NCBI RefSeq assembly: GCF_002837275.1 | Contig: NZ_NXIF01000003.1 | Coordinates: 1-32,416, forward strand | Length of the DNA: 32,416 bases | From: Malaciobacter halophilus | GTDB lineage: Bacteria; Campylobacterota; Campylobacteria; Campylobacterales; Arcobacteraceae | Reading direction: 5' to 3' | Shown: positions 24,304 to 28,525 of the stretch, in pieces | How the letters are laid out: each line of letters starts with the position of its first letter | How positions within the stretch are numbered: the stretch's first letter is position 1 | The notes under the pieces: generated by a model | What the model saw: the letters and a program-made list of their open reading frames with translations, nothing else | Databases searched by the model: none | Told to the model about the DNA's origin: nothing | Program-made: the position numbers and the translations under genes

Positions 24304-25800
24304 TTAAAAAAATCCCATTGCATTTTTGCTATAAGAAGTTAAGATATTTTTTGTATGTCTATATGAGTTTAACATCATCATATGAGTTTCTCTACCAATA
24401 CCTGATTTTTTATATCCACCAAATGAAGCATGTGAAGGATACATATGATAGCAATTTACCCATACTCTACCAGCTTCAATTCCTCTACTCATTTTGTGTA
24501 ATTGGTGTGCATCTCTTGACCAAACACCTGAACCTAAACCATATACTGTATCATTTGCAATTTCTAAAGCTTCATCTTCATCTTTAAATGTAGTTACAGC
24601 TAATACTGGCCCAAAAATCTCTTCTTGGAAGATTCTCATTTTATTGTGACCTTTAAAAATTGTTGGTTTAATATAGTTTCCATTAGGGAATGTTTTACTT
24701 TTATACTCTTCTCCACCAATTAATAGTTCTGCACCCTCTTCTTTACCAATTTTAATATACTCTAAAATTTTCTCTTTTTGAGAAGTAGAAGCTTGAGCAC
24801 CCATCATATTACTTGGGTCTAATGGATTATCTTGAGTAATTTTTTCTACTCTTTCAAGAACTCTTTTCATAAAAGGTTCATAAATTGATTCTTGAATTAG
24901 TGCTCTTGATGGACAAGTACAAACTTCACCAGAGTTAAACGCAAATAAAACTAGACCTTCAATTGCTTTATCAAAGAATTCATCATCAGCATCCATAATT
25001 GATTCAAAGAAAATATTTGGTGATTTTCCACCTAACTCTAAAGTAGAAGGAATAATATTTTCAGTTGCATATTGCATAATTAACTGACCAGTTGTAGTTT
25101 CACCAGTAAATCCTACTTTTTTAACATCTGGATGTGTTGATAAAAATTTACCAATTTTTCCACCTGAACCATTAATAATATTTACTGCACCTTTTGGTAA
25201 TGCATCTTGAATTACTTCCATAAGTAATAAAATTGACATTGGTGTAGCACTAGCTGGTTTCATTACAATACAATTTCCAGCTGCTAATGCAGGTGCTAAC
25301 TTCCAAGCTGCCATAAGTAAAGGGAAGTTCCAAGGAATAATTTGTGCAACAACTCCATATGGCTCATAAATCTCTTGAGATACTGTATCTTGGTCTAAAT
25401 CAGATACACTTCCAGATTCACCTCTAATAACAGAAGCAAAATATCTAAAGTGATCAACTACTAAAGGAATATCTGCATTTAGAGTCTCTCTTACTGTTTT
25501 ACCATTATCTAAAGTCTCTGCAACTGCAAGTTGTTCTAAATTTGCTTCAATTGCATCTGCAACTTTATTTAACATAGTACTTCTTTCAATAACAGAAGTT
25601 TTTTTGTATGTTTCAAAAGCTTTTTTTGCAGCACTTACGGCAAGCTCAACATCTTCTTCATTTGATCTTGGAATTTTTGTAAGTACTTCTCCATCAACTG
25701 GTGAAACATTATCAAAATACTCACCACTTTTTGGAGCAACCCACTCTCCACCAATAAAATTTTCATATTGTTTTTTAAATGTTGGTTTTGTATATGCCAT
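24304..25800 (-). CDS. NAD(P)-dependent aldehyde dehydrogenase (ExaC/AldB type)
   Basis: 498 residues. It oxidises aldehydes such as acetaldehyde to acids in the cytoplasm. Motifs: N158 in IIPWNFPLLMAAWKLAPAL, cofactor loop VGFTGETTTGQ (229-239), general base E255 in TLELGGKSPNI, catalytic C294 in NSGEVCTCPSRA, and EEIFGPVLAV near the C-terminus. The pattern, ending SYRHTKNILTSY, and the DUF779 neighbour are typical of the acetaldehyde dehydrogenase II (ExaC/AldB) branch. AAAGGAT precedes the ATG. An extended -10 box (TGCTATACT) lies at 25843-25850, covered by phased TAGC repeats, and the divergent gene is a FIST-type sensor kinase that may control it. Confidence 0.93.
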   Translation of the reverse strand: MAYTKPTFKKQYENFIGGEWVAPKSGEYFDNVSPVDGEVLTKIPRSNEEDVELAVSAAKKAFETYKKTSVIERSTMLNKVADAIEANLEQLAVAETLDNGKTVRETLNADIPLVVDHFRYFASVIRGESGSVSDLDQDTVSQEIYEPYGVVAQIIPWNFPLLMAAWKLAPALAAGNCIVMKPASATPMSILLLMEVIQDALPKGAVNIINGSGGKIGKFLSTHPDVKKVGFTGETTTGQLIMQYATENIIPSTLELGGKSPNIFFESIMDADDEFFDKAIEGLVLFAFNSGEVCTCPSRALIQESIYEPFMKRVLERVEKITQDNPLDPSNMMGAQASTSQKEKILEYIKIGKEEGAELLIGGEEYKSKTFPNGNYIKPTIFKGHNKMRIFQEEIFGPVLAVTTFKDEDEALEIANDTVYGLGSGVWSRDAHQLHKMSRGIEAGRVWVNCYHMYPSHASFGGYKKSGIGRETHMMMLNSYRHTKNILTSYSKNAMGFF

Positions 25801-25842
25801 GTTTATCCTTTATTTTTTTTGTAAAGATTATTCTACAAAAAA

Positions 25843-25851
25843 AGTATAGCA
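25843..25851 (-). promoter_or_regulatory. Extended -10 promoter of the aldehyde dehydrogenase gene
   Basis: TGCTATACT on the minus strand: a TATACT box (25843-25848) with the TGn extension, 42 bases before the ATG. Its GCTA is the first of four such elements spaced 11 bases apart. Confidence 0.6.
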
Positions 25852-25883
25852 TGAGTTTAGCTTTAAAATAGCAAGAAAATAGC
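25847..25883 (-). repeat. Four TAGC/GCTA elements with an exact 11-base period (candidate operator)
   Basis: TAGC starts at 25847, 25858, 25869 and 25880 on the plus strand (GCTA on the minus strand). The outer two units are longer and identical (AAAATAGC at 25865-25872 and 25876-25883). A period of one helical turn is the normal layout of binding sites for OmpR/PhoB-type regulators. The array covers the spacer and -10 region of the aldehyde dehydrogenase promoter, and the next operon on the other side encodes an OmpR-type regulator. Confidence 0.55.
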
Positions 25884-25959
25884 GTTTTGCAAATACCTAG
25901 TTTAGGGGTTTTTAAGAGTACAGTTCAAAATAATTTATTAAAACTTTCTTTTTTTATGC

Positions 25960-25965
25960 TAAAAT
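25960..25965 (+). promoter_or_regulatory. -10 box abutting the FIST kinase start codon
   Basis: TAAAAT, then CTCTAC, then the ATG. The expected transcript start, about seven bases after the box, is the A of the ATG, consistent with a leaderless mRNA. A T-rich run lies upstream. Confidence 0.45.
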
Positions 25966-25971
25966 CTCTAC

Positions 25972-27885
25972 ATGAAAACATACAATTACAGTATTGATAA
26001 TCAAAATGACATCAATAAAATAGAGTTCCAAAAGTTTAAAAATCATAAAAATATCTTAGTACAAATTTTTTGTGGAGATTATAAACTTCAAGAGTATTCA
26101 AACACTATAATAAAAAAACTACCACAAGCAAAATGTATTGGAGCTACAACAGATGGTGAAATTATTGAGAATCAAGTAACTACAAACAGTAGTGTTATTT
26201 CTATATCTATTTTTGAAAACACAAATTTACAAACAGCTTATTGTACAAATAAAGACTCTTTTAAAAATGGTCAAGAGTTAGCACAAGAGCTTATTACAAA
26301 AAATACAAAACTTCTTATTATCTTTACAGATGGAACAGTTACAAATGCAGAAGAGTTTTTAAAAGGGGTTGAATCAATAAATAGTAAGGTAATAATTTGT
26401 GGAGGAATGGCAGGAGATAATAGTGAGTTTATTCAAACATATATCTCTTGTAATAATAAAGTTTTAAAAAGAGGTTCTGTTGCAGTTGCTTTAAATTCAA
26501 ATATTTTAAAAGTATATAATGATTATAGATTTAATTGGTCTACTATTGGAGTTGGACACACTATAAATAAAGTAAAAGGGAATAGAGTTTATAGTATATC
26601 TGGTATGAAACCCACAGATTTTTATGCAAAATATTTAGGGGAAGAAGTAGCAAAAGAGTTACCAACTACGGGTATTGAGTTTCCATTAATTATCGAAAAT
26701 GGTTCAATAAAAACAGCAAGAGCAGTTTTAAAAAAACATAAAGATAAAACACTTAGCTTTTCAGGTAATTTTAATGAAGGTGATGTTGTAAAATTAGGTT
26801 TTGGTAATGCAGAAATGATTATGCAAAATCCAATAAATGAACTAAAAAATCTATTAGAAGAGTTTAAACCACAAAGTTTTTTTCTTTACTCTTGTATGGC
26901 AAGAAGAAGATTTATGCCAAGTTTTATTAATGTTGAAATAGAGCCCTTTTCAAATATTACTTCAACAAGTGGTTTTTTTACATATGCTGAGTTTTTTCAC
27001 AATAAAGGACATAATGAACTACTAAACCAAACTTTAACTATTGTTGCTTTAAGTGAAGACTTAAGTAAAGAAAAAATACAAATCAAACAACTACATAATA
27101 AAAGTAATAATAAAGATGCAAGAACAATAAAAGCATTAGCTCACTTAATTGAACAATCATCTCAAGATTATGATATACAAACAAAAAAACTTCATAAGCA
27201 AAAAGCTTACTCAAATAGCATTCTTGCTTCTCAAAAACAGTTTTTAAGACATACAGTACATGAAACAAGTACTCCTTTATCTGTAATTATGAGTAATATA
27301 GAGTTATATGAGATGATTCATGGAAAAAATGAGTATATTTCAAATATTGAAGTTGCAATGAAAAATATCTCTTCAATTCATGATGACCTTAGTTTTTTAA
27401 TAAAAAAAGACCAATTAGTGTATAATAAGATTCAAATTGATTTAGTTGATTATGTAAGAAGTAGAATTGACTTTTTCTCTCAAGTTGCATTACAAGTAAA
27501 ATCTAATTTTATTTTCTTTGCAAATGAAGAAAGAATGCCCATATTTTTTAGTGAATCAAAACTTCAAAGAATTGTAGATAATAACCTAACAAATGCAATC
27601 AAATATACCTTTGAAAATGAAAATATCTATGTTGATTTAAAAAGAAAAAAAAGTGATTATATATTAAGTATATCTAGTCATTCATGTGTAATTCAAGACC
27701 CAAAAAAGATTTTTGAAGAGTATTATAGAGAAGAAAAGACTCAAAAAGGTTTTGGATTAGGTTTAAATTTAGTAAAAAGAGTTTGTGAAGAAGAGAATAT
27801 TCAAATTGATGTAGTTTCTGATAAAAACAATACTTGTTTTACTTATACTTTTAAAGGAGAAGCAAGTGAAAATCTTACTACTTGA
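25972..27885 (+). CDS. Soluble FIST-domain sensor histidine kinase
   Basis: 637 residues with no signal peptide or membrane segment, so a cytoplasmic sensor. About 25-205 is a FIST_N domain (CIGATTDGEIIEN, VIICGGMAGDN) and about 210-360 FIST_C (PTDFYAKYLGEE, FFLYSCMARRRF); FIST domains are thought to bind small ligands. A coiled-coil linker leads to the dimerisation helix with H430 in HTVHETSTPLSVI, then an ATPase domain with N box NNLTNAIKYT and G2 box GFGLGLNLVK. The G1 box is degenerate: where kinases have DxGxG or NxG it reads SSHSCVIQDP. No ribosome-binding site precedes the ATG; TAAAAT at 25960-25965 could start a leaderless mRNA. The regulator gene overlaps its end by 20 bases. Divergent from the aldehyde dehydrogenase gene. 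Confidence 0.88.
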   Translation: MKTYNYSIDNQNDINKIEFQKFKNHKNILVQIFCGDYKLQEYSNTIIKKLPQAKCIGATTDGEIIENQVTTNSSVISISIFENTNLQTAYCTNKDSFKNGQELAQELITKNTKLLIIFTDGTVTNAEEFLKGVESINSKVIICGGMAGDNSEFIQTYISCNNKVLKRGSVAVALNSNILKVYNDYRFNWSTIGVGHTINKVKGNRVYSISGMKPTDFYAKYLGEEVAKELPTTGIEFPLIIENGSIKTARAVLKKHKDKTLSFSGNFNEGDVVKLGFGNAEMIMQNPINELKNLLEEFKPQSFFLYSCMARRRFMPSFINVEIEPFSNITSTSGFFTYAEFFHNKGHNELLNQTLTIVALSEDLSKEKIQIKQLHNKSNNKDARTIKALAHLIEQSSQDYDIQTKKLHKQKAYSNSILASQKQFLRHTVHETSTPLSVIMSNIELYEMIHGKNEYISNIEVAMKNISSIHDDLSFLIKKDQLVYNKIQIDLVDYVRSRIDFFSQVALQVKSNFIFFANEERMPIFFSESKLQRIVDNNLTNAIKYTFENENIYVDLKRKKSDYILSISSHSCVIQDPKKIFEEYYREEKTQKGFGLGLNLVKRVCEEENIQIDVVSDKNNTCFTYTFKGEASENLTT

Positions 27886-28525
27886 AGATGATGTAATGCT
27901 AAATAATGCAATAAAACAGTATTTAGAATCTGTTGGTCATGTAGTAGTTTCAACAAGAGATGGAAGAGAGTGCCTTGAAATAGTAGAGAAAAAAAAGTTT
28001 GATTTACTTATTTTAGATATAAATGTTCCAAATATTGATGGTCTTACAATTCTTGAGGTATTGCATAAAAAGAAAAAAGCAATTCCAACTATATACATAT
28101 CTGCTTTAATAGATATAGAAGATATTTCAAAAGCTTTTAACATAGGATGCAATGACTATTTAAAAAAGCCATTTCACTTAAAAGAGTTACACTTAAGAAT
28201 TAATAGACTTTTACAAAATAAAGTTATCCCTTTACAACACAAAAGATTATCAAACTATTATAGTTTTGATTTAGAAACAATGACTTTATACTTTAATAAT
28301 GAGCCTCATATACTTCCTAAAAGGCAACTACTTATAATTGCATTACTTGCAAAAAATAGAAGTTTAGTTGTAAACTATGATATGTTTAGAACTTATGCTT
28401 ATGAAGATGAAGATGTAGATATAGCTACAATTAGAGCAGAAGTAAATAGAGTAAAAAAAGTTTTAAAAGAGGACTTTATTATTAATGTTAGAGGTATTGG
28501 ATATATGGTAGAAAGACCAAATTAG
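27866..28525 (+). CDS. OmpR-family response regulator paired with the FIST kinase
   Basis: 219 residues, GTG start inside the kinase gene with AAAGGAG (27853-27859) six bases upstream. Receiver domain 1 to about 115: acidic E7/D8/D9 (LLLEDDV), phospho-acceptor D51 (LLILDINVPNIDG), K101 (YLKKPF). Winged-helix domain about 130-219 with RQLLIIALL, DVDIATIRAEVNRVKKVL recognition helix, and the final INVRGIGYMVE hairpin. It would be phosphorylated by the FIST kinase and bind DNA as a head-to-tail dimer. The 11-base-phased TAGC array upstream of the kinase operon, over the aldehyde dehydrogenase promoter, is the obvious candidate site. Confidence 0.93.
   Translation: MKILLLEDDVMLNNAIKQYLESVGHVVVSTRDGRECLEIVEKKKFDLLILDINVPNIDGLTILEVLHKKKKAIPTIYISALIDIEDISKAFNIGCNDYLKKPFHLKELHLRINRLLQNKVIPLQHKRLSNYYSFDLETMTLYFNNEPHILPKRQLLIIALLAKNRSLVVNYDMFRTYAYEDEDVDIATIRAEVNRVKKVLKEDFIINVRGIGYMVERPN

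Follow-up and report, generated by a model that had tools for sequence, protein, structure and literature searches.

A conserved four-copy GCTA array as candidate operator of a FIST kinase/response regulator pair predicted to control aldehyde dehydrogenase in Arcobacteraceae

The spacer between an aldehyde dehydrogenase (ALDH) gene and a divergent operon encoding a FIST-domain histidine kinase and an OmpR/PhoB-type response regulator, here called RR1, contains four GCTA half-sites at 11-nt spacing. This array is a real, non-chance pattern that is conserved across Arcobacteraceae. Judging from sequence comparisons, it is likely to be the operator of the ALDH gene, to which phosphorylated RR1 would bind head to tail as an activator, and the FIST kinase and RR1 would constitute the alcohol/aldehyde-oxidation two-component system of Arcobacteraceae. 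The assignment of this function follows from relatives in which the same type of box precedes a ped-type cluster for a PQQ-dependent alcohol dehydrogenase (PQQ-ADH). A literature search, which covered few subscription journals, returned no RR1-type regulator, GCTA box or alcohol/aldehyde regulon of this kind, and no GCTA-type motif appears in the papers on CemR and BumSR that were consulted.

The array and its gene neighbourhood

The analysed stretch of 32,416 nt (the window) carries TAGC at positions 25847, 25858, 25869 and 25880, i.e. at a pitch of exactly 11 nt, as a preliminary description of this DNA had reported. Read in the direction of the ALDH gene (minus strand), the candidate operator array (25847-25883) is GCTATTTTCTT-GCTATTTTAAA-GCTAAACTCAT-GCTATACT, with copies 1 to 4 at 25883-25880, 25872-25869, 25861-25858 and 25850-25847. 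Chance is excluded as its origin by shuffles and a genome scan: when the 171-nt spacer was shuffled 20,000 times with dinucleotide counts preserved, four GCTA copies at 11 nt never arose, and any 4-mer with at least three different letters, repeated four times at a constant spacing of 8-15 nt, turned up in only 4 of 20,000. Throughout the 2.75-Mb genome, GCTA triples at 11-nt spacing exist at only two loci, namely the ALDH array and a site upstream of pta-ackA. Across 60 relatives, 46 such triples were found among the matches listed, versus 2 for the reversed control.

These numbers also bear on the alternative that the array is the A/T-rich periodic pattern found in place of the -35 element in Campylobacter sigma-70 promoters, which would require no dedicated regulator. 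This explanation is highly improbable, since that pattern is A/T-rich rather than GCTA-based, GCTA triples at 11 nt are confined to two genomic loci, and the boxes are concentrated at alcohol and acetate genes and co-occur with the FIST kinase (see below). A generic periodic promoter of Campylobacterota was thus ruled out, given that GCTA arrays are rare and gene-specific.

The gene downstream of the array (24304-25800, minus strand) encodes an NAD-dependent aldehyde dehydrogenase (Pfam Aldedh) of the ExaC/PedI type, i.e. an acetaldehyde dehydrogenase. Its best score, 840 bits, is with the ExaC model NF050026 (cut-off 900); models of other aldehyde dehydrogenase families score far lower. A gene for a DUF779 protein (PF05610; 23886-24257, minus strand) comes after it and, based on gene order, is probably cotranscribed. 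On the plus strand, the divergent operon begins with the FIST kinase (25972-27885), which is composed of FIST_N, FIST_C, HisKA and HATPase_c domains and retains an HETSTP H-box as well as the ATPase domain. NosP is the nearest named family of its FIST half, yet at 76 bits (cut-off 450) this half is a distant relative rather than a NosP protein.

The gene for RR1 (27866-28525, plus strand) overlaps the end of the kinase gene. RR1 is a member of the OmpR/PhoB family by both its receiver and its winged-helix domain. In the receiver (PF00072), D51, D8, S79 and K101 are invariant in seven proteins comprising RR1 and its paralogue RR2 (see below), and the phospho-acceptor aspartate is present. The C-terminal domain (PF00486) is predicted to form four beta strands, three helices and a hairpin, amounting to a complete winged helix, and Foldseek matches are OmpR/PhoB homologues and their DNA complexes.

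Promoter geometry

The ALDH promoter is devoid of a -35 hexamer, and the array occupies its place. In most of 38 divergent ALDH/FIST-kinase spacers that were compared, 11 nt separate the last GCTA from a TANNAT hexamer, and the spacer alignment reveals, after these 11 nt, a block with strongly conserved bases, TGTAnAATTTCA. The corresponding element of the window is TG-TAGAAT (25830-25837, minus strand), whose TAGAAT hexamer (25830-25835) lies 11 nt past the last GCTA. The same distance recurs at related promoters: in a survey of sites chosen without requiring a -10 element, with ties counted as fractions, the best TATAAT-like hexamer was found at offset 11 for 15.5 of the 18 ped sites and for 30 of the 47 acetate sites. 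The conserved block and this offset in ped and acetate promoters indicate that the ALDH -10 element is probably TAGAAT. A competing hexamer, TGCTATACT (TATACT), which lies over the fourth copy, is less likely in view of the conserved TGTAnAAT block and the 11-nt offset elsewhere. The earlier suggestion that one GCTA copy sits inside the extended -10 box is therefore probably wrong, as conservation and related promoters put the -10 element 11 nt further on.

With TAGAAT as the -10 element, the array would span about -60 to -24, the position of a PhoB-type activator. It had been argued that repression is as likely as activation because the array reaches the -10 box, but this does not follow if, as is most likely, the array ends before the -10 element, and the fixed 11-nt distance at most box promoters favours activation. 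A repressor operator, at which RR1 would block RNA polymerase at the ALDH promoter, is unlikely. The array does overlap the region covered by RNA polymerase (-60 to -24), and the overlap would be direct if TATACT were the -10 element. Yet repressor sites tolerate varied positions, whereas the constant 11-nt gap between the last half-site and the -10 element at most ped and acetate promoters, together with the absent -35, fits activation.

The proposed mechanism accordingly has three steps, each of them predicted. The FIST kinase would phosphorylate RR1. Phosphorylated RR1 would then bind the array as two tandem head-to-tail dimers, with one monomer per 11-nt unit and GCTA as the recognised core. 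Finally, bound RR1 may stand in for the -35 contact and so activate transcription of the ALDH gene and, with it, the DUF779 gene.

At the other end of the spacer, the kinase gene has an extended -10 element of its own, TATGCTAAAAT (25955-25965, plus strand), with similar -10 elements at the kinase end of other spacers. The lone GCTA within it is part of this element and does not belong to the array. Since the -10 element is about 6 nt from the kinase ATG (25955-25972), the kinase mRNA may be leaderless.

Conservation and co-occurrence with the FIST kinase

The array is present in 38/38 divergent ALDH/FIST-kinase spacers examined, each from a different species of Arcobacteraceae. Four perfect GCTA copies are found in 31 of them, 29 at 11-11-11 spacing and two at 11-12-11, the latter being expected if two dimers bind. 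Among the remainder, six have one copy changed to GCTT and one retains a single pair. Over the 38 spacers, mean information per column is 1.72 bits in GCTA, 0.75 bits in the linkers and about 0.41-0.43 bits outside, meaning that the GCTA columns are roughly four times more conserved than their flanks. The check that had been proposed for the array, whether the repeats are kept where the gene pair is kept, thus came out in its favour, and the idea of tandem OmpR/PhoB-type sites for the neighbouring regulator is supported insofar as these predicted sites are retained with the gene pair.

Four of the spacers (G112, G110, G019 and G023; L177, L185, L049 and L051) contain an additional GCTA pair upstream, on the kinase side, at a distance of 25-44 nt from the four-copy array, possibly an autoregulatory site. 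A contig scan yielded six loci only. Close relatives that bear a name include Arcobacter sp. CECT 8985 and a Halarcobacter MAG.

Beyond the divergent spacers, a strict box, GCTAWANTCANGCTA-N11-TANNAT, a pattern picked after the ALDH arrays were seen, occurs in 38/104 Arcobacteraceae genomes. All of these encode the FIST kinase (38/62 FIST-positive versus 0/42 FIST-negative genomes, Fisher p = 5e-12), and the same holds within genus g11 (8/14 versus 0/17, p = 4e-4), although shared ancestry makes such p-values overstate independence, a problem that the within-genus contrast lessens but does not remove. An ALDH orthologue, 76-86% identical, was found in 14 FIST-negative genomes, and none of them shows a GCTA pair; with G073 left out because the match there begins at residue 39, the count is 0/13. 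Most of these 13 promoters have one GCTA at the usual distance from the -10 element and, 11 nt upstream of it, a degenerate copy (GTTA, GTAA or GCAA). Where the kinase is present and the ALDH gene lies distant from it (G008, G026), the GCTA pair is retained. The 11-nt repeats are conserved beside the RR1 gene and track its presence.

A predicted alcohol/aldehyde regulon in relatives

Mapping of the regulon, carried out on selected genome stretches, identified boxes beyond the ALDH promoter. In two relatives, G022 and G007, the box precedes a ped-type PQQ-ADH cluster that encodes a PQQ-dependent dehydrogenase of the methanol/ethanol type, a PedF cytochrome c550, a PQQ-dependent beta-propeller protein, PQQ_ABC_bind, an ABC transporter and a weakly MoxJ-like binding protein, among others. 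PQQ-ADH, PedF and the ExaC-type ALDH share a common promoter box in both genomes, as a Ped/Exa-type regulon would. PQQ-ADH itself is found in 9/60 relatives, and in all nine the FIST kinase is present as well. No PQQ-ADH accompanies the ALDH in the window's own genome. In G055, the ALDH promoter is without the array, and a box is instead located upstream of a molybdoenzyme of the aldehyde oxidase/xanthine dehydrogenase type that is divergent from the FIST kinase.

The box at alcohol-oxidation genes in relatives ties the FIST domain to alcohol and aldehyde metabolism. The proposed link between the array and aldehyde oxidation gains from this, the ALDH being ExaC-like and the box preceding ped alcohol-oxidation genes elsewhere. 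The picture of a self-contained circuit, by contrast, was drawn too narrowly, as the box also occurs before the ped cluster in relatives and a paralogous acetate system appears to use a nearly identical half-site.

Several further loci were recorded during the mapping. Four-copy 11-nt GCTA arrays lie upstream of orthologous genes in G022 (L120:2955-3953) and G007 (L129:2190-3247); the G007 protein behind this array has an XdhC Rossmann domain and resembles molybdenum-enzyme maturation factors, an unexpected association with the box. G007 also has a second FIST kinase/regulator pair (L132:4182-6751), 52-56% identical to the window's kinase and with no GCTA boxes nearby, and second copies are likewise found in G010, G027, G118 and G121. 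A GCTA pair with a TATAAT hexamer at the usual offset also stands beside a gene block conserved between two members of the window's genus (L137:2408 and L127:455, minus strand).

A putative sister system for acetate

RR2 is paired with a Cache-domain kinase with an MctS-like N-terminus and adjoins an actP-type symporter gene; the window's own genome encodes it, too (L125). It is 52% identical to RR1, with which it shares the recognition-helix motif TIRAExxRxKK, so GCTA alone cannot separate the sites of the two regulators. Based on gene neighbourhood, RR2 appears to read a second set of boxes, about atGCTAnnTTWATGCTA, which precede actP, DUF485/symporter genes, acs and pta-ackA and are also found in FIST-negative genomes. 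The pta-ackA site, as the genome's only other triple, was at first suspected to be a target of the FIST-linked regulator. Since pta boxes are of acetate type and also occur in FIST-negative genomes, the site was then assigned to RR2. The actP-type symporter gene beside the acetate two-component system of the window's genome (L125:3801-5696; G000 contig C33) has one in-frame stop, which could be a true lesion or a sequencing error; the frame is open in relatives.

Position matrices were trained on 16 ped and 52 acetate-locus sites, with the ALDH sites left out, and in leave-one-out runs correctly separated 14/16 ped and 50/52 acetate sites. By this measure, which relies on linker bases and, for RR1, on a training set of just 16 sites, the proximal ALDH pair is of RR1 type in 38/38 spacers (mean +15.3 bits). 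In the window, the proximal pair GCTAAACTCATGCTA (25847-25861, minus strand) fits the strict pattern and is of RR1 (alcohol) type at +13.5 bits, the distal pair GCTATTTTCTTGCTA (25869-25883, minus strand) is of acetate type at -12.1 bits and the middle register is ambiguous at -3 bits. The array may hence be composite in this genome.

This observation leads to a dual-input alternative, possible but less likely than not, whereby in the window's genus RR2 and its Cache-type kinase read the distal pair and RR1 the proximal one, integrating acetate and alcohol/aldehyde signals. The distal pair scores -12.1, -11.8, -11.0 and -7.2 bits in 4/6 genomes of the genus, compared to mostly +3 to +19 elsewhere; RR2 is present in the same genome with its assigned boxes at actP, DUF485/symporter, acs and pta-ackA; and most FIST-negative ALDH promoters combine one GCTA and a degenerate partner with an acetate-type linker. 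Nevertheless, the distal pair is slightly RR1-like (+4) in the other two of the six genomes, and the score gap arises from linker bases only, which RR1 may tolerate. It is a slightly more doubtful step still to conclude that the window's genus has a two-input promoter at which sister systems kept the GCTA core, diverged only in linker preference and share one operator at the acetaldehyde-to-acetate step.

That RR2 alone controls the ALDH array, with the FIST pair acting elsewhere, is quite improbable. The identical GCTA core would allow it, and FIST-negative ALDH promoters are mostly acetate-type (10/13 at -7 bits or lower). However, four-copy ALDH arrays and RR1-type linkers exist only alongside the FIST kinase, also within one genus, whereas RR2-type sites occur without the kinase as well. 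The preferred reading remains RR1 as the predicted activator of the ALDH gene.

Comparison with known systems

The kind of system described here is already known. The PHO box consists of two 11-nt direct repeats, each with 7 well-conserved and 4 less conserved nucleotides, that are bound head to tail (PMC4415409). As at the E. coli PHO box and its regulator PhoB, 11-nt direct repeats take the place of the -35 element. The GCTA array differs in its core, in having four units rather than two and in its association with alcohol/aldehyde rather than phosphate genes. By analogy, it is predicted to work like a PHO box through RR1 binding, but it is not one.

ArcA sites mostly comprise 3-5 direct repeats, predominantly at 11 bp centre-to-centre, and ArcA controls carbon oxidation (PMC3798270). 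E. coli ArcA boxes thus resemble the GCTA array as a multi-repeat array at 11-bp pitch linked to carbon-oxidation genes. ArcA mainly represses oxidation, whereas the array geometry here suggests activation, and core, kinase and regulon are all different.

The two box types amount to a candidate code by which two sister two-component systems of Arcobacteraceae, for alcohol and for acetate, would recognise their sites. It should help in predicting carbon regulation across the family and in understanding how paralogous regulators split or share sites.

On the sensor side, the Campylobacterota two-component system BumSR of C. jejuni also has a cytoplasmic sensor, which responds to short-chain fatty acids (PMC11796366). 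BumS, however, contains a PAS domain and functions solely as a phosphatase, whereas the FIST kinase has the H-box histidine (HETSTP) and no PAS domain. With the NosP sensors of NO, it has the FIST domain alone in common. FIST domains occur widely as sensors, but few of their ligands are known; the kinase described here probably responds to a compound from alcohol or aldehyde oxidation or, alternatively, to NO/heme as in the distant NosP. A conserved FIST kinase, a defined operator and coherent targets (ExaC, and PQQ-ADH where present) make this signal testable by reporter.

The closest parallel in gene content is the ped/exa system of Pseudomonas. The ped cluster of Pseudomonas putida carries a FIST gene, PP_2663 (a nosP homologue), beside PedS1 (PMC12997753). 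The regulon in relatives of the window's genome likewise includes PQQ-ADH, a PedF cytochrome c550, PQQ_ABC_bind, a PQQ beta-propeller protein and an ExaC-type ALDH, and both clusters contain a FIST gene. In Pseudomonas, FIST is a stand-alone protein (PP_2663/NosP) that targets a hybrid kinase (PedS1/ErcS'), and activation proceeds via LuxR-type AgmR/ErbR; in Arcobacteraceae, FIST and kinase are fused in one protein, with an OmpR-type regulator as the output. Finding FIST with quinoprotein alcohol oxidation in a second phylum besides that of Pseudomonas suggests that the association is functional.
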